From positions 1 through 41,929 of the forward strand of contig JAAZMR010000084.1 in the NCBI GenBank assembly GCA_012798695.1: a DNA stretch of 41,929 nt, written 5' to 3'. Positions 870-21,008 of the stretch are shown in pieces. The notes beneath the pieces were generated by a model. The model worked only from the letters and a program-made list of their open reading frames with translations, ran no database searches and was not told the origin of the DNA. Within the stretch, counting starts at the first letter, position 1, and every line of letters starts with the position of its first letter. Position numbers and translations under genes: made by a program. Source of the DNA: Bacillota bacterium (lineage in GTDB: Bacteria; Bacillota; Limnochordia; DTU087).

Positions 870-914
870 CCAGTTTTCCCTCCTACAAGTTGCTGCATTT
901 CGATTCCCTCAAAA

Positions 915-1496: not shown

Positions 1497-1514
1497 ATCT
1501 AATACCTCCCTTTC

Positions 1515-2168
1515 CTAGCCCTGAACAGCCTGACCGGTGGTGACCGAACCAACAGCCCGTTCGTGTCTCCGCCGCTCTAGAGCATAATTGACCTGGTTCA
1601 TTACTCCTACCACGATCCCGAGTGTGAAGAACGCACCTGGTGGGAGAAGGAATATCACCCAAGATGTCGCTGTCTCCGATAGGATCATGTGGCCGAACAC
1701 GGAACCCATGCCCAAAAACTCTCGAATGATGCCTAGGGCTGTCAGCCCCCAAGTGATGCCTACTCCCATGCCAAGAGCATCAATCAAGGAGTGGAATACT
1801 GGCATTCTGGAAGCATAGGCCTCTGCTCGGCCCAGGATGATACAGTTGACCACGATTAGTGGGATAAACAATCCCAACACCTCGTGTAGTTCCGGGAAAT
1901 TAGCTGCTAGCACCATATCAGCAATCGTTACAAAGGTGGCAATAATGATGATATAGCAAGGGATGCGCACCTTCTTGGGGATTAGGTTCTTCATCAGGGA
2001 AATCATGACTGAGGAACATACCAACACAAATGTTGTAGCTAACCCCATAGCTAGACCATTAGCAGCTGCAGTAGTAACCGCTAAGGTGGGGCACATACCG
2101 ATTAGTAATCGGAAAGTTGGATGTTCATCCCAAAGTCCTTTGATAAACTCTTGTCGCAAGCTCTTCAT
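1515..2168 (-). CDS. rnfE: Rnf complex membrane subunit E
   Basis: This 217-residue polytopic membrane subunit is homologous to NqrD and is the partner of RnfA. The N-terminus (QEFIKGLWDEHPTFRLLIGM, then CPTLAVTT) and about six membrane helices match the family. The ATG shares one base with the TAA stop of rnfG (TAATG), and a GGGAGGTG ribosome site lies within the end of rnfG, so translation is coupled. The C-terminal 25 residues are polar and probably cytoplasmic. Nothing is missing compared with family members of about 200 residues. Confidence 0.95.
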   Translation of the reverse strand: MKSLRQEFIKGLWDEHPTFRLLIGMCPTLAVTTAAANGLAMGLATTFVLVCSSVMISLMKNLIPKKVRIPCYIIIIATFVTIADMVLAANFPELHEVLGLFIPLIVVNCIILGRAEAYASRMPVFHSLIDALGMGVGITWGLTALGIIREFLGMGSVFGHMILSETATSWVIFLLPPGAFFTLGIVVGVMNQVNYALERRRHERAVGSVTTGQAVQG

Positions 2169-3004
2169 TACCAGACACCTCCCGCTCTTAGGTCTGCTTC
2201 TACCTCTGACAGTGCAGCCTTAATGGTGGCAGCTACTGCTTGAGAGGAAACGGTAGCTCCGGCAATAGCATCCACATCTTGTTTAGCGGCAAAGGCATCA
2301 TCTAAAGACTTGTCCTTAAACTGTTCTAAAAAGCCCTGTTCGGTAATTCGGGCCCCTAAACCCGGGGTCTCCTGGTGGTCCAGAACCTGGATCCGGGTCA
2401 GCTTACGTATGGTAGGATCGAGACCCACCATCATTCTAATAGTGCCACCAAACCCGTCACCATCGACAGCAAAGGCTATACCAGTGGTATTGCCATGATC
2501 ATCTATGCCCCGATAAGTCGTGACGACGCTCACCGTAATCGAACTGCCGCTGGTACCGTCAACAGAACTCCCACTGGTGGTATCAGCTAGTGTACTGCTG
2601 CTGGTGGCATCACTAGGAGTACTGCCACTGGTTGCATCGGCAGTGGTACTGCTGCTTGTAGCGTCAGTTGTAGTACTCCCACTGGTGGTATCAGCTAGTG
2701 TGCTGCTGCTGATGGCATCACTAGTAGTACTGCTGCTCGTAGCGTCAGCTGTAGTACTGCCACTGGTCGCATCGGCAATAGAGCCGCTGCTTGTCACATC
2801 TGCCGCAGAATCATCGCTGTTGGATTCGGTTACTATCTCATAGGATACAGCTCCTGGAAGTACTTCCAATATGGCTTCCCTCATAGCTGCCTCTTTATTT
2901 GCTTCGATAATGGGAGACATGGTTTGATGCACATAGGCCAATACCCCACCGGATATGGTAGCGATTAAACCTAGTACAACAATTAATCTTAGACTCTCAC
3001 GCAT
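2168..3004 (-). CDS. rnfG: Rnf complex FMN-binding subunit G with Ser/Thr repeat insertion
   Basis: RnfG carries a covalently bound FMN on the outer face of the membrane. The 278-residue protein has one N-terminal helix (about residues 7-28) and a C-terminal FMN-binding domain. That domain contains VLDHQETPGLG (about 207-217) and DAIAGATVSS (about 245-254), in which T251 is the expected flavinylated threonine. Between helix and flavin domain sits an unusual insertion, roughly residues 70-150. It consists of eight to nine copies of a nine-residue unit resembling ATSSSTTAD. RnfG proteins are typically about 180-210 residues, so the insertion explains the extra length. The start overlaps the end of rnfD by 8 bases, with GGGGAGGTG upstream. 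Confidence 0.95.
   Translation of the reverse strand: MRESLRLIVVLGLIATISGGVLAYVHQTMSPIIEANKEAAMREAILEVLPGAVSYEIVTESNSDDSAADVTSSGSIADATSGSTTADATSSSTTSDAISSSTLADTTSGSTTTDATSSSTTADATSGSTPSDATSSSTLADTTSGSSVDGTSGSSITVSVVTTYRGIDDHGNTTGIAFAVDGDGFGGTIRMMVGLDPTIRKLTRIQVLDHQETPGLGARITEQGFLEQFKDKSLDDAFAAKQDVDAIAGATVSSQAVAATIKAALSEVEADLRAGGVW
2555..2797 (-). repeat. 27-bp tandem repeat encoding nine-residue Ser/Thr/Asp units in RnfG
   Basis: Within rnfG the minus strand encodes consecutive nonapeptides such as ATSGSTTAD, ATSSSTTSD, AISSSTLAD, TTSGSTTTD, ATSSSTTAD, ATSGSTPSD and ATSSSTLAD. The final unit is TTSGSSVDG. The units are imperfect but stay in register at 27 bases per copy. This looks like a low-complexity extracytoplasmic linker, which could vary in copy number by slippage. 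Confidence 0.9.
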
Positions 3005-3941
3005 GAGTCTTCACCTCCCCATAGGGTCTAGGCCGTGTCATTCGGTCTAATAGGGGTGTAAAGCCATTCATCAGGAGAATAGAATAGGATACACCTTCTG
3101 GGTAGCCCCCCCAGAGGCGAATGACCATTAAGATAATGCCAGCACCAACACCAAACAGCCACTTGCCTTTACGGGTAATTGGTGTTGTTACCATGTCGGT
3201 GGCCATGAAGAATGCTCCGAGCATGAGGCCACCTGCCAGCCAGTGGAAAATCGGATCTTGACCAAAGGCTAGCGCAATTATACCCACTGTGCCTAGGTAG
3301 CTGACTGGAATGCGCCAGTCAATATATCGCTTGTAGAGGAGATAGAGACCACCAATCAGTATAGCTAAGGCTGATGTTTCACCCAGGCAGCCGCCGATAT
3401 TGCCGATGAACATATCCCAGTAACTGCTGGTGATACGTCCCATTTGCATCTGAACTAGAGGGGTAACAGTAGCCATGCCATCGATGGGGCTTGTCCAAGT
3501 GATCATAGCTGCAGGGAAAGCCGCCAAAAGAAAAGCCCTTCCTACTAAGGCAGGGTTAAAGGGATTATAGCCTAGGCCACCGAAAACGTGTTTGCCCAGA
3601 GTCATGGCTACAACTCCACCTACTACTGCCATCCACCACGGTATGGTAGGTGGCAAGTTAAATGCCAAGAGCATACCGGTGACAACGGCACTACCATCAT
3701 AGATGGTAATTGGTTTGCCCCTTAGTTTCTGAAAAACCCATTCTGTCAAAATACATGCTCCTACCGTTACCATGACTAACCAAAGAGCTTGGAAACGGAA
3801 GAAATACAGAGATGCAATCAGAGCTGGTAGTAAAGCGATTACAACACCGTACATTATGCTTGAGACTGATTCCTGATCTGACACATGGGGAGCTGGAGAT
3901 ATAATCAGCTCTGTGTCAGTTGTCACTGTATTGCCTTGCAT
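2997..3941 (-). CDS. rnfD: Rnf complex membrane subunit D
   Basis: RnfD is a polytopic, FMN-carrying membrane subunit homologous to NqrB. The 314-residue protein has about eight to nine hydrophobic helices. Family signatures include YDGSAVVTGMLLAFNLPP (about residues 81-98) and GGLGYNPFNPALVGRAFLL (about 121-139). The flavinylation site is probably T160 in DGMATVTPL (residues 154-162), the threonine directly before P-L. The ATG has a GAGGGAGG site about 10 bases upstream. It follows rnfC by 18 bases and overlaps rnfG by 8 bases. Confidence 0.95.
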   Translation of the reverse strand: MQGNTVTTDTELIISPAPHVSDQESVSSIMYGVVIALLPALIASLYFFRFQALWLVMVTVGACILTEWVFQKLRGKPITIYDGSAVVTGMLLAFNLPPTIPWWMAVVGGVVAMTLGKHVFGGLGYNPFNPALVGRAFLLAAFPAAMITWTSPIDGMATVTPLVQMQMGRITSSYWDMFIGNIGGCLGETSALAILIGGLYLLYKRYIDWRIPVSYLGTVGIIALAFGQDPIFHWLAGGLMLGAFFMATDMVTTPITRKGKWLFGVGAGIILMVIRLWGGYPEGVSYSILLMNGFTPLLDRMTRPRPYGEVKTHA

Positions 3942-3959
3942 GAGACAGTTCCCTCCCTC

Positions 3960-5288
3960 TTAGCTGGTCTGTTTGCTGCGCTGAGCTTGCACTTCCGCTT
4001 TGGCAAGCTTGATGGATTGCACGAGAAAACGGTTAGCAGGGCATACGTAGGAACAGCTGCCGCATTCGATGCAGTTGAGCAGCCCCCATTCGACCGCAGC
4101 ATCTAGCTCACCACCATCAGCATAGTTGACTATGGTTACCGGCAGCAGATATGCTGGGCAGACATCGACACAGCGGCCACAGCGGATACAGGCTTCCGGT
4201 TGTGTGGCTCTCTTGCGATTATTAAACACCAAAATGCCGGAGGTGCACTTGACCACAGGGCTCGATAAGTCAAACTGAGTTAGTCCCGTCATGGGGCCTC
4301 CCATGATCACTTGCTTAGGTGTTCCCCTCAGTCCACCGGCTGCCTCCAGGACTCCATCTAATCTGGTACCGATGCGGATCAAGAGGTTCTGAGGTTCTCT
4401 CACCCCTTCTCCGGAAACAGTCACGATCCGTTCGATTAATGGCATACCTGTTTGAACAGCTGTCTGAATGGCTGCCGCGGTCCCCACATTATTGACCACG
4501 ATACCAATATCCATAGGCAGGCCGCCAGCAGGCACTTCCTTCCCTGTAATCGCCGTGATTAGCTGTTTCTCAGCACCCTGGGGATACTTGATTTGTAGAG
4601 GAACAATTTCTATGCCAACATAGCCAGCAGCTGCTTTCTGCATGGCTGTAATGGCATCAGGTTTATTCAACTCGATACCAATTATCGCCCTATTTATGTC
4701 CAGAGCCTTCATTAGTGCCCGAGTGCCGTAGATCACCCGCTCAGGATGCTCAACCATCAGACGGTGGTCACAAGTGAGATAAGGCTCACATTCACAACCA
4801 TTGATGATGAGAGTATCGATTGGCTTGTCCGAGGGGGGCATTACTTTAACATGGGTAGGAAAAGTTGCACCTCCCAGCCCGACAATGCCGGCTTCTCGGA
4901 TAATCTTCCTGATAGTATCAGCATCTAGTTGCTCCAGATCACCGTGTGGGGTGATGCTGGGATCCAAGCGTTCCTCATTGTCATTTTCAATCACTACAGC
5001 TTGAACTCTGCCTCCAGCTGGATGCAAACATGACTCGATCGCCTTGACAACTCCAGATACCGGGGCATGAATAGGTGCTGAAATAAAAGCCTCAGTGTCT
5101 CCAATTTTCTGTCCCTTACTAACCACATCGCCTTTTTCTACTAAGGGCTTACAGGGTGCTCCGATATGCTGTTGTAGGGGGACAATTACCTCAGCGGGGG
5201 GTGTCATCACGGTTATGGCCTTATTACTGCTTAGTTCCTTATGGCCGACGGGGTGAATACCTCCCCTAAAGGTTTTGCCTCTGCTCAT
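3960..5288 (-). CDS. rnfC: Rnf complex NADH-binding subunit C
   Basis: RnfC is the peripheral subunit that exchanges electrons with NAD+/NADH through FMN and iron-sulfur clusters. I place the start at the ATG giving MSRGKTFRGGIHP (442 residues), because GGAGG lies six bases upstream. An ATG seven codons earlier has no such site. The N-terminal part carries a lipoyl-like sandwich domain (about 20-90). A glycine-rich segment at about 130-150 (IVGLGGATFPTHVK) belongs to the FMN/NADH-binding domain. Two ferredoxin-type motifs lie near residues 367-378 (CIRCGRCVDVCP) and 406-417 (CIECGSCSYVCP). It is the first gene of the rnf operon. Confidence 0.95.
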   Translation of the reverse strand: MSRGKTFRGGIHPVGHKELSSNKAITVMTPPAEVIVPLQQHIGAPCKPLVEKGDVVSKGQKIGDTEAFISAPIHAPVSGVVKAIESCLHPAGGRVQAVVIENDNEERLDPSITPHGDLEQLDADTIRKIIREAGIVGLGGATFPTHVKVMPPSDKPIDTLIINGCECEPYLTCDHRLMVEHPERVIYGTRALMKALDINRAIIGIELNKPDAITAMQKAAAGYVGIEIVPLQIKYPQGAEKQLITAITGKEVPAGGLPMDIGIVVNNVGTAAAIQTAVQTGMPLIERIVTVSGEGVREPQNLLIRIGTRLDGVLEAAGGLRGTPKQVIMGGPMTGLTQFDLSSPVVKCTSGILVFNNRKRATQPEACIRCGRCVDVCPAYLLPVTIVNYADGGELDAAVEWGLLNCIECGSCSYVCPANRFLVQSIKLAKAEVQAQRSKQTS

Positions 5289-5421
5289 GTTCAACCTCCG
5301 TTCCTTCACTGCTAGAAAACTACTTTAACCAGACTAGGATTCGTCACTACATCGTCTGTTTCCTGTCGGTTTTTGTCTATCAAATAGTGCCAAACAAGAA
5401 AGCTTATGCTTTACTGGGACT

Positions 5422-6372: not shown

Positions 6373-7533
6373 TCACCTATTTTCGCCTTTTATTTCCCGA
6401 GTCTCACCTAGGATTTCATTGTATACCGCCAGTGTTTGGCTAGCGGTATTTTCCCAGCTCAAAGAGGCTGCAGCTGTACGGCCCCGTTCGCTCATCATTT
6501 GCCGTATGCACATATCCATCAGGCCGCGGTTCAGTTGCCTAACCAGGCCAGTAGTATCTTCGGGGTCGAAAAGGAGTGCCACATCTGCTGCCACCTCTGT
6601 CACCGAAGGTACTGGACTGCTTATTACCGGAATACCGCAAGCCATAGCCTCTAGTGGAGGCAAGCCAAAACCTTCATATAGACTAGGATAGGCAAATAGA
6701 TCTGCCCCCTGGTAAAAAACCACCATGTCCTCCATGGGTATGAATCCGGGGAACATAACAGTAGTATCGACTCCCAAGGCTTTACACAAGCCGGGCAAGT
6801 CCTCCATACCCATACCTTGTATTCTACTAGATAACTCTCCGGTAATGACCAGAAGTAATCTGCTATCCCAGTACTTTCTAGCTTTGGCAAAGGCGTAGAT
6901 TAACTCCATTATGTTCTTTCTGGAGTTGAGCCCACCGGTATACAGCACATAAGGGAAGGCAATATCATAGTGGGCATGGAGCCGGTTTCTGGCTCGTGCG
7001 GGATCGCCGGGCTTGAAGACTGCCTCTGGGGCAGGGTAGATTACCTGGATCTTATCCTCGGGTATGGATAACACATTATGCATATCCCTTTTGGCAGCCT
7101 GGGAGACTGTCAGGATCCGATGAGCTTGATGGGCTACTTCCGGTACTTTTTCTAGGAAATTGCGCCGGTAGCCACGTCTAACTGTTTCTGGCATGACAAA
7201 GGGAATCAGATCATGAATCGTTACTACCAGTGGACAGTGGGATGTCGGCAAAGCATGGAGCCCGTTATCTGGTGCATGATGGAGTTCAATTCTTTGTTTC
7301 TCCAGCCACAAAGGTAATTCCACAGCTTCATCCCGCCGTTTTCTGGTCATGGGCTGGTAGTGGAAATTGGGTGGCAGCGGCCAAGGTTTTGTTTGATCAT
7401 CAGGCCATAACAAATAGTACTCGTGTTCATTATCCAACTTGGCCACGAAATTAACCAACTGGTAAGTATAGTTGCCGATGCCAGTTCCCCTGGCTAGAAC
7501 AGCTGGGCGGGCATCGATACATATTCTGGCCAT
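6373..7533 (-). CDS. GT4-family glycosyltransferase (coat-glycan cluster, copy 1)
   Basis: This 386-residue retaining glycosyltransferase has the GT-B fold. The start ATG (MARICIDARPAVLARGTGIG) follows an AAGGAG site; upstream in-frame codons lack one. The N-terminal Rossmann domain begins IDARPAV...RGTGIGNYTYQL. The C-terminal domain contains TGGLNSRKN (about 220) and the GT4 signature EGFGLPPLEAMACG (about 293-306), which contacts the sugar nucleotide. It is closely related to the proteins at 12090-13220 and 15149-16267, which share the opening motif and a central NG motif (APDNG here). It lies 42 bases downstream of a CotS-like kinase gene on the same strand. The sugar is unknown; heptose or mannose is likely from context. 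Confidence 0.88.
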   Translation of the reverse strand: MARICIDARPAVLARGTGIGNYTYQLVNFVAKLDNEHEYYLLWPDDQTKPWPLPPNFHYQPMTRKRRDEAVELPLWLEKQRIELHHAPDNGLHALPTSHCPLVVTIHDLIPFVMPETVRRGYRRNFLEKVPEVAHQAHRILTVSQAAKRDMHNVLSIPEDKIQVIYPAPEAVFKPGDPARARNRLHAHYDIAFPYVLYTGGLNSRKNIMELIYAFAKARKYWDSRLLLVITGELSSRIQGMGMEDLPGLCKALGVDTTVMFPGFIPMEDMVVFYQGADLFAYPSLYEGFGLPPLEAMACGIPVISSPVPSVTEVAADVALLFDPEDTTGLVRQLNRGLMDMCIRQMMSERGRTAAASLSWENTASQTLAVYNEILGETREIKGENR

Positions 7534-7575
7534 AGTTGCTCTCCTTTCCTCGGGGTCTTGCGGTGCCAAATTTGC

Positions 7576-8574
7576 TCAGGCTAGCTGAAAAGCGCTTACG
7601 ACATTTTCCAAGAGACGCTGTTCCTTGTCTCTGGTACGGCAGCGACGGCGCAGGCGATCCAAGTATGTCCCTCGGGATCGAACACGTTTTTCACCATAGA
7701 ATTGATGAGCAACTTCCCAGAATTTTTGAGGCCAAAGCCAAAGGGGAACGAAAAGCTGTAGCTCTTCTTGGGGGAGAGGGTTCTTATCTAGATAAGCTGT
7801 CAGTACCCGACAGGCCATATGAGAGTTGTAATTGGTGAATTTGGCCAGTCGGCGCAGGAAATTCACTAGATCATGGATAGGTAGATCACATATACAGTAA
7901 TCAAAATCCACCAAGTGGATACTCTGCCCACCAGTGAATAACACATTGCGTTCAGAGTAATCATGGTGACAAAGACTGCCCACTGCCTGATAACGAGTGG
8001 TGATCTCTGCATATGGAGACTTGAGTAAGATTTCCAGGGCATCCTGGCCTTGTTTGCAGTAACGATCGATATGGCGGAGGAATCGGCGCTCGAAGCGGCT
8101 GGGGGCCATTTGGCCTTCGGCAATTGTTTTGTACTGCTGCAGTTTATCTAATCGTTCTTGCCAGAGGCTGGGCCAAGCGCCCCACCAAATGCGCTCAGGT
8201 ACAGTAGGTGGGGCAAAACCCCGGGCGCTCTGGTGAAGCTCGGCTAGATTCTCAGCGGCCGGTATGACATCACTAGGAGAATCATAGTGAGCCTCCCGGC
8301 TTTCCACCCAGGAACTCATCACAAACAGATGTCCGTCAATATCGACATAGGGGGATTCGTCCGGGCTGAGGATATATCGATCAATATTGGTGGTACCTTG
8401 CTTATATAGGTACTCTTTTGCTGCATGGATGAAGAGTATGCCGGTTTTGCTTTGGCGACTTTCTTTTAGAGCAAATGTGCCTTTATCACTCGCAATCTTA
8501 AATGCTCGTCGTACTGTCGTGATCTTGCTTGGGCTTATGCCGAATTGAGCGGCAGCTGCCTGTTCCCGGGTCAC
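7576..8574 (-). CDS. CotS/CotI-like spore-coat kinase A (catalytic residues intact)
   Basis: This 332-residue protein has the aminoglycoside-phosphotransferase-like kinase fold of the CotS family. The GTG start (MTREQAAAAQFGIS) follows GAGGAGG by eight bases; an ATG eleven codons upstream has no ribosome site. Active-site residues are present: the N-lobe lysine K37 (FALKES), the catalytic H203-H-D205 with N210 (LCHHDYSERN) and the metal-binding D223-F-D225. CotS and CotI are coat-associated proteins of Bacillus. Activity towards a sugar or protein is expected from the fold, but the substrate is unknown. The gene heads the minus-strand unit with glycosyltransferase copy 1, and a SigK-like promoter lies upstream. 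Confidence 0.85.
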   Translation of the reverse strand: MTREQAAAAQFGISPSKITTVRRAFKIASDKGTFALKESRQSKTGILFIHAAKEYLYKQGTTNIDRYILSPDESPYVDIDGHLFVMSSWVESREAHYDSPSDVIPAAENLAELHQSARGFAPPTVPERIWWGAWPSLWQERLDKLQQYKTIAEGQMAPSRFERRFLRHIDRYCKQGQDALEILLKSPYAEITTRYQAVGSLCHHDYSERNVLFTGGQSIHLVDFDYCICDLPIHDLVNFLRRLAKFTNYNSHMACRVLTAYLDKNPLPQEELQLFVPLWLWPQKFWEVAHQFYGEKRVRSRGTYLDRLRRRCRTRDKEQRLLENVVSAFQLA

Positions 8575-8642
8575 TAATCTTTCCTCCTCTCCATAGGTGC
8601 TCAGCATGAATGAGATAGTAGCACAGGGCTATGGCGCGTATT

Positions 8643-8671
8643 CATTATATTTGCTCTTTACAGATTTGGTG
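8643..8671 (-). promoter_or_regulatory. SigK-like promoter for CotS-like gene A
   Basis: Read on the minus strand, CACC is followed by 16 bases and AATATAATG. The mother-cell sigma-K consensus is mACm, 16-17 bases, CATAnnnTA, so the -10 matches at seven of nine positions. A SigA-type reading, TTCACC with TATAAT 18 bases later, fits the same bases, so the assignment is open. The predicted start is about 60 bases before the GTG. Confidence 0.4.
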
Positions 8672-8678
8672 AACGAAG

Positions 8679-8707
8679 CACAGGGATTAGGGTCCTATCA
8701 TATTAAT
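8679..8707 (+). promoter_or_regulatory. SigK-like promoter for CotS-like gene B
   Basis: CACA, 16 bases, then CATATTAAT lies about 37 bases before the ATG of the long pseudokinase gene. The -35 element and spacing match sigma-K. The -10 has CATA, with TA one base later than the consensus. It is divergent from, and partly interleaved with, the candidate promoter for gene A. Confidence 0.4.
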
Positions 8708-8743
8708 ATATGGAAGCTGACATCCCGACGGGAGGGAACGGGA

Positions 8744-10972
8744 ATGGGCAGGAAAAGAAAAAAGCGTCATTCAGGATTTCAAAGTATGCTGGACCAATAT
8801 AGAATACTACAATCAATCGCAGATGACTATGACCTGAGAATGCTGCAGTTCGAAAGAGAAAACGGTGTGTTTAGAGTCAATACCAGCCAGGGTTTGAAGA
8901 AGGTTAAGGTCTTTAAGCGTCCACAGGCAGAATTGGAGTATGTGCACGGAGCCTTAGAGCATCTAGCTGGCAAGGGATGGAAAAGGAGTATGCCATTTCA
9001 TTTGACAAGGGAAGGCTTACCCTATGTAGAGACTCCTCTAGGGCTGTTTTATGTATGTAATTGGGTACAGGGCACAGAAATAAATCCCGAAGATCCGTTT
9101 CATTTAGAAATGGCAGCCAAAGTTATAGGAGAGATGCACCGCCTATTGCAGGACTACAGGGGCTCAAACGAGTGCCACCGCCAGCATGCACCAAATTGGC
9201 AGGAGAAGTATGGTAGGCAGGCAGAGGATCTGGAGCGGTATCGGCAGCAAGCAGAAAGCGCTCGTAAAGGGAAATTCGGCCGCCGCTTCTGTCAAGTAGC
9301 CGATGATTTCATTCGCATGATGGGTATGGGATTGCAGCTGTTAGATGAAGCCGACTATGACAAGGTGAGAGAGGAACCGGAGTTTGTTACGACCTGCCAG
9401 ACTAGTCCCACTGCCAACAACCTGATTATCGGCACTGATGGCAAGACCTATGTAATCGATTTTGATAACGCTCGTGCTGACTTAAGGATCTATGATCTGG
9501 GGCGAATGCTGATTCGGCATAGTGGCTGGGAGGTAGATAAGGCACTGTTTCTCATCGAAAGCTACCAGGAGGCTAACCCATTAACCCAGGAGGAAATCGC
9601 CCTGTTGCCGGGGCTTTGCGCCTTCCCCAGCCGGGGTTGGCGAGTTGCCAGATCCTTTTTTGAAAGAGGCAAGATTCACCTAGCCCGTCTGGAAGCCTCC
9701 ATAGAGGAGCTTATGAAACAGGAAGCCTTTGTTAAAGCACTTTCCCAGATACAGACTGCACGGTTAGTACACATCCCCGTGCAGCTGTTTCAGACTATTC
9801 CCTATCCAGAGCCCCTAATCGATGACGTAGTGCCAGAAGAAACAGAGGCAGATAAGCAGCCGGAACCAGAGGTTGCCCAAGACGTATTGCCTGAACAGTC
9901 AGAGTCAAGTCCGGTTACCCAAGTACAGCAACCTTTCTATTGGGGTGATGAGCATCTCATTTTCGATGAGCTGGAAGAGGAACAGCTTTGGGCTCTTCGT
10001 CAAGAGCTAGCCAGTCTGGCCAGGCGGCTGGCAACTATTTCCGGTGCTGTATTTGGCCAAGAGTCCGAGGGAGGTGATGGATGGGTGGACACAAGGCACG
10101 TTCCCGATATAGGCCAGGACGATACCAAACTCGCTGATATTGTCATAGAAATGGGTAGTGAGATCCCTGTAGAAGTATCCAAGGGGCAGAGCGAAGAAAC
10201 CCTGGCCATTCCAGTCTCGGCTGAGATAGGGGAATGCCTCCTGGGTGAAGGAGAGGAGGTAGAGATCGGGCAATCCATGGCCGATTTTGGATCACGTTGG
10301 CAAGAAGAAGGTGAGGTGAGGCTGGATCTAGCCATTGATATGGAAAACGTTAGTTGGGAAGTTCCAATAGAGGAGACTATGTTTTCGGCAGAAGATCAAG
10401 GAGGAGCGAAGCAAATTCAAACGATCCCGGTACTGGCCGAAATGCAACCGGAGGAGCTGATTAAGCCGGGCAAGGAAGTTCCGGTGGAGTATGCGGTGGG
10501 CTTCGCAGCAGATTGGCCCGAGGATAGTGTATCCTCTGATCAACATCAGGTGATTGAGACAGCGAGCAGAGAAGATGAGGCTGTAGGGTCCGAGGCAGAT
10601 GTGGTGGTAAGTTTAGTTCCCCAAGAGACAGCATTGGAGCCATTGATATTTGATATGCCGGCAGATACTGTTCAGTTTGCTGAAGTCATAGGCCAACCTG
10701 CTGAAGCGGTGCCAGTGTTCGAGGAAGAGACGGGATCCGAGGTGTGGGAAGCAGCTGCACCCGCCGCGCAGGAAGCTCCTACCCTAGAACCAGAGACTGA
10801 GATTGGCCCGGCACAGGAGACTGAGGGGACAATGATGGCCCAAAGCGACCACGAACCGGAGAGGGCCAGCCCATTATTAAGCCCTCAGCCTCCAACAGGG
10901 ACAGTAGAATGGGGGAATTTCCCTGAACCCTTGGGAGGACGTCGTCGGGCCCGGCAACGACAGTCGAGGTAA
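8744..10972 (+). CDS. CotS-like pseudokinase B with long acidic C-terminal tail
   Basis: This 742-residue protein starts at the ATG of MGRKRKKRHSGF, preceded by GGGAGG seven bases away. An open frame 49 codons upstream overlaps the divergent promoter region and is not used. Residues 1-345 align with the CotS kinase fold (DFD at 239-241, N226 kept). The HxD motif is replaced by Q219-T220-S221 (TCQTSPTANN), so catalysis is probably lost. Residues about 355-742 are an acidic, Glu/Pro/Val-rich tail with one helical patch (about 400-440, LEEEQLWALRQELASLARRL). It ends in a basic GRRRARQRQSR. Family members are usually 330-350 residues. The tail suggests a structural or scaffolding coat protein; this is inference. 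Confidence 0.8.
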   Translation: MGRKRKKRHSGFQSMLDQYRILQSIADDYDLRMLQFERENGVFRVNTSQGLKKVKVFKRPQAELEYVHGALEHLAGKGWKRSMPFHLTREGLPYVETPLGLFYVCNWVQGTEINPEDPFHLEMAAKVIGEMHRLLQDYRGSNECHRQHAPNWQEKYGRQAEDLERYRQQAESARKGKFGRRFCQVADDFIRMMGMGLQLLDEADYDKVREEPEFVTTCQTSPTANNLIIGTDGKTYVIDFDNARADLRIYDLGRMLIRHSGWEVDKALFLIESYQEANPLTQEEIALLPGLCAFPSRGWRVARSFFERGKIHLARLEASIEELMKQEAFVKALSQIQTARLVHIPVQLFQTIPYPEPLIDDVVPEETEADKQPEPEVAQDVLPEQSESSPVTQVQQPFYWGDEHLIFDELEEEQLWALRQELASLARRLATISGAVFGQESEGGDGWVDTRHVPDIGQDDTKLADIVIEMGSEIPVEVSKGQSEETLAIPVSAEIGECLLGEGEEVEIGQSMADFGSRWQEEGEVRLDLAIDMENVSWEVPIEETMFSAEDQGGAKQIQTIPVLAEMQPEELIKPGKEVPVEYAVGFAADWPEDSVSSDQHQVIETASREDEAVGSEADVVVSLVPQETALEPLIFDMPADTVQFAEVIGQPAEAVPVFEEETGSEVWEAAAPAAQEAPTLEPETEIGPAQETEGTMMAQSDHEPERASPLLSPQPPTGTVEWGNFPEPLGGRRRARQRQSR

Positions 10973-10997: not shown

Positions 10998-11043
10998 CCA
11001 AAGGTCGGTTCTGCAGAGGCCGGCCTTTGGATCTCCTTTTATT
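10998..11043 (+). terminator. Hairpin with T-rich 3' side between genes B and C
   Basis: CCAAAGGTCGG (10998-11008) pairs with CCGGCCTTTGG (11020-11030) over 11 base pairs with one G-U wobble. ATCTCCTTTTATT follows. It looks like a rho-independent terminator or attenuator that would reduce expression of the genes downstream of the long pseudokinase gene. Confidence 0.6.
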
Positions 11044-11055: not shown

Positions 11056-12093
11056 GTGGCGTGTTTGCTCCATTTGCCTGTAAGAGGAGAAACTGAGGAC
11101 CAGCCTCTAGCTTCGATGCTAGCCGCAGACTATGATCTGGAAGCGGTGGCTATCGAATCGGGGGAAAGCCATTATACGATCTTTACTCCAGAGGCGGTTT
11201 TCCAGCTGCATTATGATAGCCCAGTAGAAGAGACCCTTTCCATGCTGCAGTGTTGGGATTATCTGCAGGTCCATGGTTTCTCGGAGATTTGGCCCCTGCG
11301 GGTAACTGCTGTGGGGGACTTGGGGGTTTATCTTGATGACCATATAGGCTATATGACGGCTCGATCGGGTGGTAGGCCGGGAGAGCTTGGCCTTAGGGCA
11401 GATGCCGTCATGGCAGCCAAGGTCTTAGCCAAGTTGCATTTGTTATCTCAAGAGCTACCTGTTTCCGTGCGGGAGGGCCTGGATAAAGCACCACCCATTC
11501 GGCCTAACCTTGCCCGAAGGCGGGAAGAATTGGAGCTTTTCCGCACTATGGCTCTACATAGATTATTTCCTAGAGCTTTTGACTTGCTCTTCCTCAAAGT
11601 CTATGAATATGCGGCTTGCCAAGCTGCTCGTTCAATGGATGTATTAGCCCAAATCGACATTGACCAGCTGGAAAACCAGCCGGAACTCGGGGGCCTATTG
11701 CAGGGCAAATGTCATGGCCGCTCTTTTTGGGCAACTGATGAAGGCAAGATGCAGCTTCCGCACCTGCAAGGAAGCACTTGGGGTCTTTTGGCCCAAGATA
11801 CCGTTTCTCTGATCACAAATGTCGGCAACTATACCGAATGGTCGTTATCTACTGCCCATCGGGTACTCTCTGCTTATCAAGGGATACGTCCCCTCCAGCA
11901 TGTAGAGCTGATGACCATATATGGACTAGGCATCTTTCCTAGAGGGATCTGGGATACTGCTTATGATTATTACAAAGGTAATCGTAAGCGAGATGAGCCA
12001 GAGGCTCTAGAAGCATTGCGGGAGGAGTGGCAAAGGGCAGTACTACAGAGAGAATACTGGCAGTGGTTACTGGGAGATGAACTTGGGGTATGA
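11056..12093 (+). CDS. CotS-like pseudokinase C (all key kinase residues lost)
   Basis: The 345-residue protein is recognisably CotS-like over its length. The C-terminal part GIFPRGIWDTAYDYYKG matches the FP.EYW...YY pattern of the neighbouring paralogues. The catalytic set is absent. The lysine position reads FQLHYD, the HxD motif is H220-G221-R222, the asparagine position is T227, and the DFD segment is replaced by QLPHLQ. It therefore cannot be an ordinary kinase and may be a structural or regulatory paralogue. The GTG start has AAGGG only a few bases upstream, so the true start is uncertain (ATG at 11116 is an alternative). The stop overlaps the next glycosyltransferase start by four bases (ATGA). 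Confidence 0.75.
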   Translation: MACLLHLPVRGETEDQPLASMLAADYDLEAVAIESGESHYTIFTPEAVFQLHYDSPVEETLSMLQCWDYLQVHGFSEIWPLRVTAVGDLGVYLDDHIGYMTARSGGRPGELGLRADAVMAAKVLAKLHLLSQELPVSVREGLDKAPPIRPNLARRREELELFRTMALHRLFPRAFDLLFLKVYEYAACQAARSMDVLAQIDIDQLENQPELGGLLQGKCHGRSFWATDEGKMQLPHLQGSTWGLLAQDTVSLITNVGNYTEWSLSTAHRVLSAYQGIRPLQHVELMTIYGLGIFPRGIWDTAYDYYKGNRKRDEPEALEALREEWQRAVLQREYWQWLLGDELGV

Positions 12094-13220
12094 GGATCGC
12101 GATGGATGCCAGGGGAGCCGTCTGGTTTAGAGGTACAGGTATCGGCACATATACCTATCAATTGGTCAAAGGATTGGCTCGTAAAGCTGGTCATGGCCAT
12201 GAGTTTCTCTTTTTCTCTCCGGAAGCAGTCGGCATGATGACAAGGAAGACCCCCAATGTGGGTTGGGTGACTGTCACAGAGAACCCTGATTGGGAGGTGG
12301 AGCAAACTCATATGGTACAGGCCATGTTGGAGGCAGATGTTGATCTCTATCATATGCCGCAAAACGGTCTTAATCTTCCTCGAGAAGTGCCATTCCCGGT
12401 GGTAGTCACACTCCATGATGTGATCCCTTACGTATTGCCTCAAACATGCAACCCCGCGTTTCTGCGCCGTTTCCTGACCCAAATGCCTTACATTGCTGAA
12501 CGGGCAGATATGCTGATTACAGTTTCCCATTATTCTAGAAGTGATATCATGCGCCATCTCCAGATTCCGCCAGAAAAAATCACGGTCATCTATGCAGCGC
12601 CGGAACCCACTTATGTGCCTTTACCGCAAGAACCCTGCCGAAAGTTTCTGCAAGAACGCTATGGGTTCAACGGTAACCCCTTGATTCTTTATGTAGGCGG
12701 TTTTAGTTTGCGCAAGAATGTGAGCCTGCTTCTAAGGGCCTTTGCCGCCAGTCAAACGGAACTTGGGGCAAAGGCGATATTGGTGATGGTCGGCAGGCCC
12801 ACTCCAGAGGTGGAAGGCCTTTTGAAACTGGCCCGGGCGCTGAAGATGGAAGAGCGAGTGATTTGCCCTGGCTATGTCCCCGTCCGGGATCTGCCCCAGT
12901 TCTATAGTGCTGCAGATGTCTTTGTCTACCCATCCTTATATGAGGGGTTTGGTATGCCGCCCTTGGAAGCTATGGCTTGTGGTATTCCTACTATTACATC
13001 CAATGCGGCGGCTCTAGCCGAGGTTGTCGGAGGCGGCGCGTGGCAGGTAGAACCATATGATCAGGTAGGGTTAGCTGAAGCTATCATCCAGGTTGTTACC
13101 GATAGGAAGATGGCTGCTCAACTGAGGCAAAAGGGTAGGGATTGGGTACGGCGCTATGCGTGGAAGAAGGCCGTAATGGAGACAATCTTGGCCTATGAAG
13201 CAGTGACCATGGCGAACTGA
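12090..13220 (+). CDS. GT4-family glycosyltransferase (coat-glycan cluster, copy 2)
   Basis: This 376-residue GT-B retaining glycosyltransferase begins MRIAMDARGAVWFRGTGIG. Motifs include YHMPQNGLNLP (about residues 89-99), TLHDVIPYVLPQTC (about 110-123), VGGFSLRKN (about 205-213) and the GT4 signature EGFGMPPLEAMACGIP (about 285-300). Its ATG overlaps the stop of pseudokinase C by four bases, so the two are translationally coupled. That ties a degenerate CotS protein to a glycosyltransferase. The gene ends five bases from the convergent sugar-kinase gene. Donor and acceptor are unknown; GDP-heptose or GDP-mannose are the local candidates. Confidence 0.88.
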   Translation: MRIAMDARGAVWFRGTGIGTYTYQLVKGLARKAGHGHEFLFFSPEAVGMMTRKTPNVGWVTVTENPDWEVEQTHMVQAMLEADVDLYHMPQNGLNLPREVPFPVVVTLHDVIPYVLPQTCNPAFLRRFLTQMPYIAERADMLITVSHYSRSDIMRHLQIPPEKITVIYAAPEPTYVPLPQEPCRKFLQERYGFNGNPLILYVGGFSLRKNVSLLLRAFAASQTELGAKAILVMVGRPTPEVEGLLKLARALKMEERVICPGYVPVRDLPQFYSAADVFVYPSLYEGFGMPPLEAMACGIPTITSNAAALAEVVGGGAWQVEPYDQVGLAEAIIQVVTDRKMAAQLRQKGRDWVRRYAWKKAVMETILAYEAVTMAN

Positions 13221-13225
13221 ATGAA

Positions 13226-14257
13226 CTAAAAGCGGCACCGGGCTCCGTTTACCTCCCAGGTCTGCAGTCCATTTTGGTCAAAACCGAATTTCACTACTTG
13301 GCCGCCGGCCTTTTCCAGCTCAGCGGCAATGATGTGTTTCTGATCAAAGGGGCAGTATACCAACAGGTAGCCACCGCCTCCGGCGCCCAAGATCTTGCCT
13401 CCCAAAGCTCCATGCTCCCTGGCGGCTTCGTAGAGCTGATCTATACTCTGATTCGTGATCTGCTTGGCCAGCCGCTTTTTATTCTCCCAAGCGTCATGTA
13501 ATAAAGTGCCAAAATCGCTTAATCGCCCCTGTAAGAGGGCGTTCTTCATATTCAACGTAATCTGTTTGAGCTCATCAAGGGCTGCCACTGAGGCGGTCTG
13601 TTTTTCTACATAACCTTGTACCTGTGTTTCAATGATACGGGCAGATAACCGGGTCTTGCCGGTATAGCAAAGCAGGAGATGGTACTCTAGCTCATTGAGA
13701 ATGAATGGTGAGATCCGCAGGGGATTTACCACAGTATAGTCTTTGTGAAACTCGATGAAATTGAAGCCTCCAAAGGCAGCCGCGTACTGATCCTGTTTGC
13801 CACCCTTAATCCCCAGAACTTCTCTCTCAATATGGTAAGCCAATTGAGCAATATCATAATTAGTCCATGGTCTTTGTAGCCATTGACGCATTAACCCCAC
13901 GATAGTTACTGTCATCGTGGAAGAGGAGCCGAGGCCACTGCCCGGGGGGGCATCACTATGGAGAAACAGATTGAAGCCGGCACCGTTAGCGCCTGCAATG
14001 GTATTGATCACGGCTTTCACCAGGTCCAATTCACCATCATACACCAACTGATGATCGACATCGTATTTGGCCACAATATCAAAATCCAGAGACTTAACCT
14101 GGATGACCGGTTCACTCTGGGGAATCAGTGTTGCATAGCTGTACTTGTCTATAGTGGTGGATAATACCACCCCACCTCTTTCCTCCGGGTATGGCGGCAC
14201 ATCAGTACCACCACCACAGAAACTGATCCGTAAAGGTGCTCTACTGCGAACGATCAT
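13226..14257 (-). CDS. hddA: GHMP-family sugar kinase, D-glycero-D-manno-heptose 7-phosphate kinase type
   Basis: This 343-residue GHMP kinase probably phosphorylates heptose 7-phosphate at C1. The N-terminus RSRAPLRISFCGGGTDVPPY (residues 4-23) is characteristic of HddA-like kinases. The ATP loop is PPGSGLGSSS (104-113), and the C-terminal GHMP motif is GGKILGAGGGGYLLVYCP (about 297-314). It lies 22 bases downstream of the matching nucleotidyltransferase on the same strand, which supports a shared pathway. The family also includes fucose and other sugar kinases. The heptose assignment rests on this neighbour and the GmhB-type phosphatase at 22647-23249. Confidence 0.85.
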   Translation of the reverse strand: MIVRSRAPLRISFCGGGTDVPPYPEERGGVVLSTTIDKYSYATLIPQSEPVIQVKSLDFDIVAKYDVDHQLVYDGELDLVKAVINTIAGANGAGFNLFLHSDAPPGSGLGSSSTMTVTIVGLMRQWLQRPWTNYDIAQLAYHIEREVLGIKGGKQDQYAAAFGGFNFIEFHKDYTVVNPLRISPFILNELEYHLLLCYTGKTRLSARIIETQVQGYVEKQTASVAALDELKQITLNMKNALLQGRLSDFGTLLHDAWENKKRLAKQITNQSIDQLYEAAREHGALGGKILGAGGGGYLLVYCPFDQKHIIAAELEKAGGQVVKFGFDQNGLQTWEVNGARCRF

Positions 14258-14278
14258 GGTTTTTCTCCTCCAGGGTAT

Positions 14279-14989
14279 TCATAGTTCCAAACGACGTAGG
14301 TAAAGGTCAGCCGCTAGATAACCGGCGGGAGTTCCAATATCAATAAATAGGGCATCGGAAAGATAAGCATACAGTCCAGATGCATGGGGAAAGACATCGT
14401 TTTCCAAAGAGCAGGGGCGATCTGTGGAAATAGCCTCGATTAGTTCTCGTGAGGTGGCATAGATACCCATACTGACTAGTCTGGCTCCTGGTCGCTTTTC
14501 ACGAAAACTCACGACGCGACAATCTGAATCTAGTTCGATGCTGCCAACAGCATCGCTATCCCTTGCGGGCGCAACAGCTAAGGTGGCAAGGGCGGCACGG
14601 CTGTGGTGGGCCTCCCAAAGCGGTCGCAGAGGCAAGGCAGTATAGGTGTCCCCATTGACCACAAGGAACTCTTCAGGCAGCAAGTCCAGAGCTTGAGCTA
14701 GGGCGCCAGCGGTACCCAGAGGGCTGTACTCCCAGCTATATGTCAACATCAGACCGAAACGGGAGCCATCACCGAGGTAATCAATAATCTGTTCTCCTCT
14801 GTATCCCACACAAAGAATCACAGAGCGGACTCGGTTGGTATGTAACCACTGCAACTGATGGACTAGGAAGGGCTTTCCGGCTACCTCTGCCATGGCTTTC
14901 GGCCGGTCGGAGACCAGAGGTCTCAGTCGAGTACCTAGGCCTCCAGCTAAGATCACCGCCGGCGGGAGCTCAGGTGTCAAACATACCAC
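14279..14989 (-). CDS. hddC: Sugar-1-phosphate nucleotidyltransferase, probably heptose 1-phosphate guanylyltransferase
   Basis: This protein activates a sugar 1-phosphate with a nucleotide. I place the start at GTG (VVCLTPELPPAVILAGG; 236 residues) because GGAG lies five bases upstream and a SigK-like promoter lies just before it. The frame stays open to 15112, but those ATGs have no ribosome site and lie in or upstream of that promoter. Motifs are the nucleotide loop LAGGLGTRLRP with the following RPKAM (about 14-33), and VVNGDTYT (about 105). It pairs with the HddA-type kinase, as in GDP-D-glycero-alpha-D-manno-heptose synthesis. Sequence alone does not separate GDP from other nucleotides. 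Confidence 0.8.
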   Translation of the reverse strand: MVCLTPELPPAVILAGGLGTRLRPLVSDRPKAMAEVAGKPFLVHQLQWLHTNRVRSVILCVGYRGEQIIDYLGDGSRFGLMLTYSWEYSPLGTAGALAQALDLLPEEFLVVNGDTYTALPLRPLWEAHHSRAALATLAVAPARDSDAVGSIELDSDCRVVSFREKRPGARLVSMGIYATSRELIEAISTDRPCSLENDVFPHASGLYAYLSDALFIDIGTPAGYLAADLYLRRLEL

Positions 14990-15022
14990 TGCCTCTCCAA
15001 GGTTAGTGCTCATATCCATTGA

Positions 15023-15051
15023 CATAGTATGTGAACTAGGATTTGGGGGTG
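15023..15051 (-). promoter_or_regulatory. SigK-like promoter for the hddC-hddA pair
   Basis: On the minus strand, CACC is followed by 16 bases and CATACTATG, which matches mACm-N16-CATAnnnTA at all but the last -10 position. The GTG start at 14989 lies about 27 bases beyond the expected transcription start, and a ribosome site falls in between. This is the best sigma-K match in the window. Confidence 0.5.
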
Positions 15052-15148
15052 AATGGCATAGGTATGGTTCCTGGTTCCTAAGAGAGACGATTCTCATATA
15101 TTGTAGTGTCATAGATCAATGGGCGGTTTTTGGGGGGAGGCGTAGTCA

Positions 15149-16267
15149 GTGCTGATTGGAATTGATGCTCGAGCTGCCCTTTGGTATCGGGGCTCTGGGA
15201 TTGGAACTTACACATATCAACTAATCGAGGGGCTCTTGGAGGTAGACCCCTTGAATCAGTATCAGCTGGTATATCCACCGGCTCAGTGGGTCAAAGTTGA
15301 TGACGACTTTGAACTTGTTCCCGGAGAGCATAAGAACCGTCGTTTCTGGCAGCTTGTGCAAGCATCCCCGGATGTGGAGGCAGCCGGTGTGGATGTATAT
15401 CACATTCCCCAAAACGGTATAGGTCTGCCGCCGAGCTGGCCACGGGCGATGAAGCTAGTGATCACCATCCATGATTTGATCCCTTTCGTGCTCCCACAGA
15501 CCTGCAGCAAACCCTATCTGGAAATTGCCTTAAGGGAACTGCCTCGAGTTGTCGATGCCGCGGATTATGTGATCACCGTTTCTTTCAGTACCAAGAAAGA
15601 TCTGGTGCGGATTCTTGGTGTCCCAGAGGAAAAGATTGCAGTCATCTATGAGGCGGCTGAACCTATGTATCGACCCATATGCCCGGAAAAGGCCCAGGCC
15701 TATATGCAAAAAGAGTGCGGCATAACAGCTCCCTATATTCTCAATGTAGGAGGCTTTAGCAGGCGCAAGAATCTGACTGGATTGGTGCGGGCCTTTCACG
15801 AAATCAAGGCAAAGCTGCCGGATGGATGTCAGCTGGTGCTGGTGGGTGGGTCTGGAGGCGGCTCATACGAAGAAGTCAAGATTTTGGTGGAGAAACTGGG
15901 GTTGGAAGACCGGGTGAAATTTCCAGGATTTGTGCGCACTGATAGCATGCCTTATCTATATAGTGGAGCGGAGCTTTTCGTTTATCCATCACTATATGAA
16001 GGTTTTGGGTTGCCACCTCTAGAGGCCATGGCTTGTGGAACACCCGTGGTGGCCGCCCGGGCATCCTCTATACCCGAGGTCGCGGGGGATGGGGCCTTGC
16101 TTCATAACCCTTATGATGAAGAAAGTCTCTCTGAAGCGATGCTGAAAGTCATGCTTGACGATGAGCTGAAACAGCGGCTGGTTGAGCGGGGCTATAAGCA
16201 AGCAGCTCAATTCTCATGGACCAAAGCGGCGACCGAGACTTGGATGGTATATCAATCACTGGTTTGA
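15149..16267 (+). CDS. GT4-family glycosyltransferase (coat-glycan cluster, copy 3)
   Basis: This 372-residue GT-B glycosyltransferase is closely similar in layout to the copy at 12090-13220. It starts MLIGIDARAALWYRGSGIGTYTYQ from a GTG with GGGGGGAGG eight bases upstream. Motifs include YHIPQNGIGLP (about residues 87-97), TIHDLIPFVLPQTC (about 109-122), VGGFSRRKN (about 200-208) and EGFGLPPLEAMACGTP (about 282-297). It is divergent from hddC and begins a plus-strand series with kinases D and E. The three glycosyltransferases probably act in sequence on one glycan, which is inferred from their co-location and similarity. Confidence 0.88.
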   Translation: MLIGIDARAALWYRGSGIGTYTYQLIEGLLEVDPLNQYQLVYPPAQWVKVDDDFELVPGEHKNRRFWQLVQASPDVEAAGVDVYHIPQNGIGLPPSWPRAMKLVITIHDLIPFVLPQTCSKPYLEIALRELPRVVDAADYVITVSFSTKKDLVRILGVPEEKIAVIYEAAEPMYRPICPEKAQAYMQKECGITAPYILNVGGFSRRKNLTGLVRAFHEIKAKLPDGCQLVLVGGSGGGSYEEVKILVEKLGLEDRVKFPGFVRTDSMPYLYSGAELFVYPSLYEGFGLPPLEAMACGTPVVAARASSIPEVAGDGALLHNPYDEESLSEAMLKVMLDDELKQRLVERGYKQAAQFSWTKAATETWMVYQSLV

Positions 16268-16292
16268 AAACTGAAATGGGGTTTGGAGCTAT

Positions 16293-17288
16293 ATGGTGAG
16301 GCGTCCGCACTGGAGCCAACTACCACTAGCCGCAATGTTGGCAGAGTATGGGCTCAGGTTAGATCGCTGGGAGGAGGTGTCTTCATGCCTGAAAATAGAG
16401 ACGGATCAGGGTCTGTTTCGATTGAAGTGTTTTGCCTATCCAGCTTCGGAGTTCCCATTTGTCTACACCTTGGTCCAATATCTAGCCCAACAGGGGTTTC
16501 GTCATCCCGAGATGATGCGAGTCACTCTGCGGGGGCAACTGGGGTTACCCGTCGCCGACCAGTTCTTTTATTTAGCTTCTTGGCAGGAAGGGATGACAGG
16601 GTTTCCGCTAGGTAGAGATGCCCTGCTCAAGGTGGGGAATCTCGTGGGCAGTCTGCACCAGGCTAGTCAAGGTTTTCAGCCGAGAACCCCCGTTCATCCA
16701 GCTCGAAGCCAGTGGGGAATATGGCCTACCAAGCTCATGGCCCGATACCAGGACCTACTCAAGTTCACCAGGCTGGCAGAAGCAGGTGTTACGGCCTTCG
16801 ATCGCCTTTTTGCCAGTCAAGCTCCGGCTTTTATTACCGCGGCCCAACGAGCTCTACTAGGCCTAGAGGAACTCTCCTGCTATCAAGAGATCGTCAACAA
16901 CGATAAGCAGGCACACTATGTATGCCACCGAGACTGTATCCCTCGGAATATAGTCACGGGGCTGGACGGGGAACTGATATTGATAGATTTCGATAATGCC
17001 GCTTACGCGGAAAGGGTCGATGACATAGCCAAGCTCTTATCCTATTTTTCCGGTTGGAGGCTGGAAAACGCAACCACCATATTCACGGGGTATAGTAACT
17101 GGTTTCCCCTACGAGAAGAGGAAATCCAGCTGATTCAAACATTCCTCGAGTTCCCTATGGAGTATTGGCGATTAGGCCGGTTGGCCTATGAACGAAACCA
17201 TGCTCGTTATGCTGCGTTAAGAAATTGGACAGCAACTAGCTCACGCAAAGCGGAATTTGTGATCAACCTAGAGAGGGTGACAAGTTAG
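16293..17288 (+). CDS. CotS-like spore-coat kinase D (catalytic residues intact)
   Basis: This 331-residue CotS-family protein carries a complete kinase-like active site: K45 (FRLKCF), H212-R-D214 with N219 (VCHRDCIPRN) and D232-F-D234 (LIDFDNA). The C-terminal EFPMEYWRLGRLAYE matches the paralogues. The ATG has GGAG four bases upstream, and the gene follows glycosyltransferase copy 3 by 25 bases. It probably acts in the same sporulation pathway as that enzyme. Whether it phosphorylates a sugar, a glycan or a coat protein cannot be told from sequence. Confidence 0.85.
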   Translation: MVRRPHWSQLPLAAMLAEYGLRLDRWEEVSSCLKIETDQGLFRLKCFAYPASEFPFVYTLVQYLAQQGFRHPEMMRVTLRGQLGLPVADQFFYLASWQEGMTGFPLGRDALLKVGNLVGSLHQASQGFQPRTPVHPARSQWGIWPTKLMARYQDLLKFTRLAEAGVTAFDRLFASQAPAFITAAQRALLGLEELSCYQEIVNNDKQAHYVCHRDCIPRNIVTGLDGELILIDFDNAAYAERVDDIAKLLSYFSGWRLENATTIFTGYSNWFPLREEEIQLIQTFLEFPMEYWRLGRLAYERNHARYAALRNWTATSSRKAEFVINLERVTS

Positions 17289-17290
17289 CT

Positions 17291-18331
17291 ATGCAGTTCA
17301 CTGTAGAAGCTCAGGGTGAGTGGCAGGGTGTCCAGGCAGCTCGGGAGCTAATTGGTGAGGTGAAAGAAAGATATGATCTGGAGGTCACGCAATTCGCTCA
17401 AGATGGCCCCATCTATGTTCTAGAGACACCGTCAGGTAGAAAGGTACTCAAGGAATCACATCTCTCCGAGTTTGAGCTGGACTATATCACTCACTCTCTA
17501 GCCGATTTGGGCAAACAGGGGTTCAGATCAGCAGTGGTACCGCTTGTTACCAATAACGGGTCCCGATTTTTCCGCTGGGAGGACTCACATTATTGGCTGA
17601 TGGAATGGGTGAAAGGGCGGCATTGTGACTATTTCAATGAGAGTGATGCTGTGGTAGTAGCCAAGGCTCTAGGCAGACTACATGGGGCTTCTCAAGGCAT
17701 CAAATTCGACCCGGTGCCGGATACCCGCTGGCTTCTAGGCCTTTGGCCAATGCATTTTTCTCGGCGGCTAGATCAGATGAAGCTCTTTGCTCGACAAGCC
17801 CGGTCAAGGTCGGTTCCCCGCTCCTTTGATCGCCTTTACCTGAGGGATTTTGACCGCTACTACCGACAAGCAGTCAGTGGTTTAGAGAAACTATCAGACT
17901 CTCATTATCCTGAGCTCTGCCAAGATCTGTCCTCTCGCGCTTTTTGCCACAGAGATCTAGCCTACCATAACATCCTGATGGATGATGATGGTCCCAAGTT
18001 CATTGATTTTGACCACAGTATGGTAGATCTGGGATTACACGATCTAGCTGATTTGCTTTTGCGTAACCTAGTATTGCTGGGCTGGAAATGGGAGCGGGCT
18101 ACTCGCGTTCTCAATGCCTACAGCTCGGTCATTCCACTGGATCATCGGGCATATCCCGTACTAGAAGCTTTTCTGCAATTTCCCCACGAGTACTGGCAGA
18201 TCGGGCTCCAGTACTATTACGAAAAACAGCGCTGGTCAGAGGATTATTTCCTAGCAAGATATAACCGGAAACTGAAGTCCCCTCACCTCAGACAGCGCTT
18301 CCTTAACACTTTCGCCCAGATGTTTGCATAG
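17291..18331 (+). CDS. CotS-like spore-coat kinase E (catalytic residues intact)
   Basis: This 346-residue CotS-family protein begins two bases after kinase D ends, so the genes form one unit. Active-site residues are K54 (KVLKES), H220-R-D222 with N227 (FCHRDLAYHN) and D239-F-D241 (FIDFDHS). It is the closest in the cluster to a canonical kinase active site. The segment after the DFD motif (DLGLHDLADLLLRN) and the FPHEYWQIGLQYYYEK patch are typical of the family. Tandem duplication of D and E is likely, although the two have diverged considerably. Confidence 0.85.
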   Translation: MQFTVEAQGEWQGVQAARELIGEVKERYDLEVTQFAQDGPIYVLETPSGRKVLKESHLSEFELDYITHSLADLGKQGFRSAVVPLVTNNGSRFFRWEDSHYWLMEWVKGRHCDYFNESDAVVVAKALGRLHGASQGIKFDPVPDTRWLLGLWPMHFSRRLDQMKLFARQARSRSVPRSFDRLYLRDFDRYYRQAVSGLEKLSDSHYPELCQDLSSRAFCHRDLAYHNILMDDDGPKFIDFDHSMVDLGLHDLADLLLRNLVLLGWKWERATRVLNAYSSVIPLDHRAYPVLEAFLQFPHEYWQIGLQYYYEKQRWSEDYFLARYNRKLKSPHLRQRFLNTFAQMFA

Positions 18332-18438
18332 GATGAAGGGACCACAAGACCTGGAGAGATAGACTTCACCCTGACGTGGTTTGATGGCAATATCACAACA
18401 TGGATAAGACTAGGAATGAACTAAGGAGGAAGTCGCCA

Positions 18439-20922: not shown

Positions 20923-21008
20923 CTTGCACAAAGAACATCTGCCTCCATGCCAAAATAGGAGTTGCCTCCCATAGCCACTAGCTCCTAACGTACATAGTCA
21001 TATATTAG

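Follow-up and report, generated by a model that had tools for sequence, protein, structure and literature searches.

The window analyzed here, a 41,929-nucleotide stretch of the genome of an uncultured Bacillota bacterium (contig JAAZMR010000084.1), encodes a 742-residue pseudokinase of the CotS family with a long acidic tail. The lost catalytic residue and the acidic tail are both common to all close relatives. Therefore, the protein is a genuine, specialized member of a known spore-protein family, and its role is probably structural. Our working interpretation, held with somewhat more confidence than doubt, is that it is a dead or nearly dead kinase that acts as a coat adaptor and tethers glycosylation proteins. 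The original prediction had described a pseudokinase that resembles CotS and has an acidic tail fused to it, and family models, the predicted fold, an orthologue alignment, and patterns of selection all support that description. Features are listed in Table 1.

Table 1. Features of the tailed pseudokinase gene and its surroundings in the window
Feature	Position	Strand	Remarks
CotS-family pseudokinase with acidic tail, 742 aa	8744..10972	+	
Promoter/leader	8665..8743	+	Conserved; CACA-N16-CATATTAATA (σK-like) and GGGAGGG ribosome-binding site
Pseudokinase domain, residues 11-345	8774..9778	+	pLDDT mostly >95; Foldseek best 4pdy and YtaA 2q83
Degenerate catalytic loop C218-QTSPTAN-N226	9395..9421	+	HxD to QTS (HTS/HGS in orthologues)
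Retained DFD, residues 239-241	9458..9466	+	
Acidic disordered tail, residues 356-742 (387 aa)	9809..10969	+	
Predicted tail helix, residues 412-437	9977..10054	+	Conserved; follows conserved FYWGDE segment
C-terminal motif GTVEWGNFPEPL, then basic patch GGRRRARQRQSR	10898..10969	+	
Second CotS-family pseudokinase (CotSdeg)	11056..12093	+	Fully degenerate
GT4 glycosyltransferase (GT4b)	12090..13220	+	CotSA-like position; overlaps CotSdeg end by four bases
CotS-family kinase (CotS1)	7576..8607	-	Divergent; intact HHD and DFD
GT4 glycosyltransferase (GT4a)	6373..7569	-	Paired with 7576-8607

The protein has a spore kinase fold and an extended length

The coordinates of the open reading frame were confirmed. 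Its ATG at 8744 is preceded by a GGGAGGG ribosome-binding site, and one orthologue (L015) has an in-frame TGA immediately 5′ of the homologous ATG. Therefore, we assign the start to this codon. A longer frame from a GTG at 8597 was ruled out by that abutting TGA and by variable columns that were even across codon phases (4/4/4). As had been predicted, the N terminus is basic (MGRKRKKRH), and the protein is more than twice as long as its paralogues (about 331 to 346 residues). The CotS family models themselves describe one domain of about 310 to 330 positions.

The protein passed the TIGR02906 model narrowly (173.4 bits; cutoff, 172.7), and six orthologues scored 171.6 to 190.3 bits, with two falling 0.5 and 1.1 bits short of the cutoff. 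Pfam APH also matched (36.6 bits; cutoff, 23.2), and a phmmer comparison of the domain with YtaA (2q83) gave 4e-15. The score against the NF053880 CotI equivalog model was 80 bits, far under its 550-bit cutoff. Of the YsxE/YutH models, TIGR02904 gave 59.6 bits (cutoff, 263.6) and TIGR02905 gave no match (cutoff, 215.1). No LysM or SPOCS domain was found in the protein, and its orthologues matched only APH and, weakly, choline kinase models.

AlphaFold was run on residues 1 to 445 with an alignment of 58 homologues, superseding a poor full-length prediction that used 12 sequences (mean pLDDT, 41). Foldseek ranked 4pdy and YtaA highest for the predicted domain, with TM scores of 0.78 to 0.81. 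In this model, residues of about 11 to 345 are confidently predicted to form a YtaA/CotI-like (CAK/APH) kinase fold. The structural residues H148 and D269 of YtaA correspond to H132 and D251, both invariant in the orthologues.

The catalytic Asp is lost throughout the orthologue group

The original prediction placed Q219-T220-S221 at the HxD position. This was confirmed by alignment with YtaA, in which C218-Q219-T220-S221-P222...N226 matches C-H237-Q-D239...N244 and D239-F-D241 matches D257-L-D259. However, one correction is needed, because the Asp has been lost group-wide and the His only in the window species. In 10 of 10 sequences that span the site, all from one GTDB family, Ser occupies the catalytic Asp position (Ser221 here). 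The loop reads CHTSP or CHGSP in nine of these and CQTSP only in the window species. These sequences indicate that the Asp was lost in an ancestor of the whole orthologue group and the His in the window species alone. HxD is kept in all four intact paralogue groups of the same genomes.

Because Ser was seen in every one of the ten, the Asp loss is old and real. A sequencing error at the HxD codons, which had been raised as a concern, does not account for it. Another concern had been that orthologues might have an intact HxD or no tail, but none has an intact HxD, and none lacks the tail where that part of the gene is assembled. We give almost no credence to an artifact, whether through a sequencing or assembly error at these codons or through two frames joined by chance. 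The His-to-Gln change does occur in one genome only and needs just a single base change. However, the Asp loss and the continuous frame into the tail recur in separately assembled genomes from several genera, which refutes an artifact for both.

YtaA residues K72, N244, D257, and D259 are kept as K55, N226, D239, and D241, in agreement with the predicted retention of the Asn and DFD. These four residues, like H132 and D251, are invariant in the orthologue alignment. Since the β3 Lys, the catalytic loop Asn, and DFD are all retained, nucleotide binding by the domain may survive. The protein might even still be an enzyme, with Ser221 or D241 standing in for the catalytic Asp or with the fold performing some other transfer. 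Some other former pseudokinases carry out alternative transfer reactions, selection on the ATP-site residues is strong, and Ser takes the place of the Asp in every orthologue as well as in a distant relative (L101; see below). However, we consider an enzyme highly improbable. Ser is not a base, the motif His is gone in the window species, and the catalytic Asp is believed to be essential for catalysis in this fold (PMC2860764).

The acidic tail ends in a conserved motif

A tail of about 390 residues had been predicted, and its 387 residues include 88 Asp or Glu and 20 Lys or Arg, for a net charge of -68 (Glu makes up 16.5% of residues 356 to 742). Complete orthologue tails have net charges of -53 to -82. 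In contrast to the confidently modeled kinase fold, the tail had pLDDT values mostly below 35, with the exception of the helix at residues 412 to 437. Tail length and sequence drift among the orthologues. Conserved islands include LFQTIPYP, EVRLDxAxDME, and PGxE[IV]PVEY, and orthologue tails end with V[EQ]WxxFPEP[LIM] and then an Arg-rich patch. In the window species this patch is the terminal basic segment that had been noted in the original prediction. A DNA pattern for the terminal motif occurred exactly once, always at this gene, in 10 of the 11 genomes of the family; in the eleventh, the contig stops within the gene. Searches for homologues of the tail in PDB, PHROGs, and Pfam returned nothing credible.

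For the pairs in which dN/dS could be estimated, it was 0.03 to 0.07 for the kinase domain and 0.18 to 0.41 for the tail. By these estimates, the domain is under strong purifying selection and the tail is fast evolving but constrained, less so than the domain. This bears on the possibility that the protein is a bulk matrix component, in which the acidic tail would be the functional part (in cation binding, in coacervation, or as a target of glycosylation or cross-linking), with the kinase fold as a dead anchoring carrier. Acidity is kept in all orthologues while the tail drifts, and the acidic body has basic ends, as such a protein might. However, a conserved helix, conserved islands, and a conserved terminal motif set the tail apart from a simple repeat, and constraint within the protein is strongest in the kinase domain. 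We consider a bulk matrix component unlikely.

The gene lies in a conserved glycosyltransferase locus

The GT4a-CotS1 pair is divergent from the tailed pseudokinase gene, CotSdeg, and GT4b, which are followed by HddA and HddC-like genes, GT4c-CotS3-CotS4, ManC, PMM, CotS5, and a gene for a GmhB-like HAD phosphatase. This order is the same in all genomes examined, where contigs allow, and CotSdeg lies directly 3′ of the tailed pseudokinase gene in every genome with that side assembled. The conserved locus has six CotS paralogues, three GT4 genes, and heptose/mannose activation genes. The HddA gene product scored 306 bits against NF049969, well below the 600-bit cutoff, which limits the heptose assignment to the level of the family. 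The conserved set at 12090 to 23258 (HddA-like, HddC-like, ManC, PMM, and GmhB-like genes with GT4 and CotS kinase genes) suggests a heptose-containing spore surface glycan.

CotSdeg has lost the Lys, HxD, and DFD, unlike the tailed pseudokinase. That difference would suit an allosteric regulator that binds nucleotide and turns the active CotS kinases of the locus, or a GT4 enzyme, on or off. K55, N226, and DFD are kept, and four intact CotS paralogues and the three GT4 genes are always nearby. However, such a regulator leaves the long tail and its terminal motif unexplained, and we rate it as quite unlikely.

A terminator-like hairpin at 10998 to 11030 separates the tailed pseudokinase gene from CotSdeg and could attenuate read-through. 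Because of it, cotranscription of this gene with the glycosyltransferase gene is not assured. Elsewhere in the window, 24095 to 27061 encodes an ABC exporter-type protein and then a DUF1854 protein, which together resemble one split transporter unit. An Rnf electron transport operon (RnfB, A, E, G, D, and C) occupies 39 to 5309 at the edge of the locus. An Rfam scan of 5 to 25 kb matched a single tRNA only.

A highly conserved leader precedes the gene

The 80 bases 5′ of the ATG have a mean identity of 95 to 96% across 11 genomes from six genera. Upstream identity for the other genes compared in or beside the cluster was 23 to 69%; the 69% value belongs to divergent CotS1, the upstream region of which lies in the same intergenic region. 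The leader block is single copy. Its differences are spread evenly over codon phases and, therefore, we regard it as regulatory and not as coding. Covariation that would indicate an RNA structure was not seen in the leader, where conservation is too high for covariation to show.

The site in the leader fits the -35 element and the CATA of what we take to be the σK consensus but not its full -10 element, CATAnnnTA. Upstream of CotS5, a CACC-N16-CATAGGAT pattern with the same spacing and at a similar distance (21561 to 21590) is kept in ten genomes. The pattern common to these two promoters is likely to be the footprint of a mother-cell sigma factor. On the other strand, a promoter-like TTCACC-N18-TATAAT (8673 to 8644) for CotS1 possibly overlaps the leader.

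The gene was found in one family, with a distant relative elsewhere

The gene was found in 11 of 11 genomes of its GTDB family and was absent from the other class members in a sample of 73, including the one other family in the order. A contig profile search with an alignment recovered ten orthologous loci, in metagenome-assembled genomes that are apparently these family members again, and a single-sequence query found none. The genomes that carry orthologues are presumably those of anaerobic digester bacteria from the class Limnochordia or one close to it. σK is encoded in 11 of the 11 family genomes, and SpoIVA is above its cutoff in 9 of the 11. By this genomic proxy only, the host lineage forms endospores.

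Outside the family, CotS relatives in 398 genomes of the phylum are about 335 to 520 residues long, stop to stop. One of these, L101, is a 506-residue protein (L107 6845-8365) from genome G084, which belongs to another class of the phylum. It is 28% identical to the tailed pseudokinase in the kinase domain. Like that protein, it belongs to the CotS family, has Ser for Asp (HAS replaces HxD in the loop CHASLRWGN), and has an acidic tail with a matching C terminus (GTIVWDRFPDPLD versus GTVEWGNFPEPL). However, its tail is shorter (about 150 residues), NLE replaces DFD, and the basic end is absent. L101 stands alone, with no glycosyltransferase found among its gene neighbors. Another candidate, L090 in G160, was rejected as a tailed relative; it has a 75-residue tail, but its HRD is intact and the terminal motif is absent.

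Apart from those in the family and in G084, a scan of the 398 genomes for the terminal motif gave eight matches, all in short frames, and a reversed-pattern control gave a similar background (six or more). Because the other matches are in short frames and at background level, it is unlikely that L101 and the tailed pseudokinase share their terminus by chance. Support for their relation in a tree was low, and the shared motif may reflect either common descent or convergence. We raise tentatively, with more reserve than for the adaptor role itself, that tailed spore pseudokinases form a distinct, previously undescribed class with members in two or more distant lineages. In such a class, the lost catalytic Asp would have become Ser, and a disordered acidic tail would present a C-terminal [VI]xWxxFP[ED]P[LIM] to a conserved coat receptor.

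Discussion

The bacterial spore kinases (BSK) comprise CotS, YtaA/CotI, YsxE, YutH, and BSKC1 to BSKC7 (Scheeff et al. 2010, PMC2860764). Pseudokinases of the CotS type have already been described; because several classes independently lost catalysis, those authors argued for a major noncatalytic role for spore kinases and left its nature open (PMC2860764). The tailed pseudokinase resembles this group in its kinase fold, TIGR02906 match, structural His and Asp, and linkage to GT4 and nucleotide-sugar genes, as well as in the existence of pseudokinase classes. It differs in its 387-residue acidic tail with a C-terminal motif and in having Ser at the Asp position while keeping the Lys, Asn, and DFD. 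Active kinases of the CotI/YtaA type keep the Asp (D239 in YtaA). The open-license papers searched contained no report of a tailed spore pseudokinase that ends in a conserved motif, and this subclass appears to be new.

In Bacillus, cotS and ytaA are linked to GT4 glycosyltransferase and nucleotide-sugar genes, and Bacillus subtilis CotSA requires CotS for its assembly into spores (PMC2860764). The locus described here likewise has a CotS-family gene adjoining a GT4 gene. However, CotS keeps the Asp and no such tail has been described for it, and here two pseudokinases precede the GT4 gene. SpoVID is a coat hub that binds partners via short segments (PMC6282716). The likeness of the tailed pseudokinase to the SpoVID and SipL hubs is in working mode only; the folds are unrelated, and neither LysM nor SPOCS domains were found in it.

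A scaffold or matrix role, as suggested in the original prediction, is plausible. We prefer its adaptor form on the basis of the lost catalytic base, the disordered but conserved tail, the terminal motif, the gene order with a glycosyltransferase gene, and the dependence of CotSA on CotS. As an adaptor, the protein would be made in the mother cell under σK control. Its kinase-like domain, possibly nucleotide bound, would dock a partner from the locus, either the GT4 encoded at 12090 or CotSdeg. The acidic tail would be a flexible tether that gives reach, and the C-terminal VxWxxFPEP with its Arg-rich end would plug into a coat or morphogenetic protein. Heptose/mannose glycosylation machinery might thereby be held on the spore surface, as with CotS and CotSA in B. 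subtilis. Against this, the retained Lys, Asn, and DFD could still permit residual activity or a different chemistry, the σK-like site is incomplete, and the extreme acidity of the tail could simply be structural or cation binding.

If the proposed class of tailed pseudokinases is real, a kinase fold would have been turned into an adaptor for coat assembly, and its site of peptide docking would be a defined one. The conserved tether and short terminal motif provide a handle on the noncatalytic role of spore kinases; the motif is short enough to serve as bait, and the conserved gene order points to the likely partners. Such a pseudokinase would also reveal, beyond the Bacillus model, how sugar transfer enzymes are held on a spore surface.
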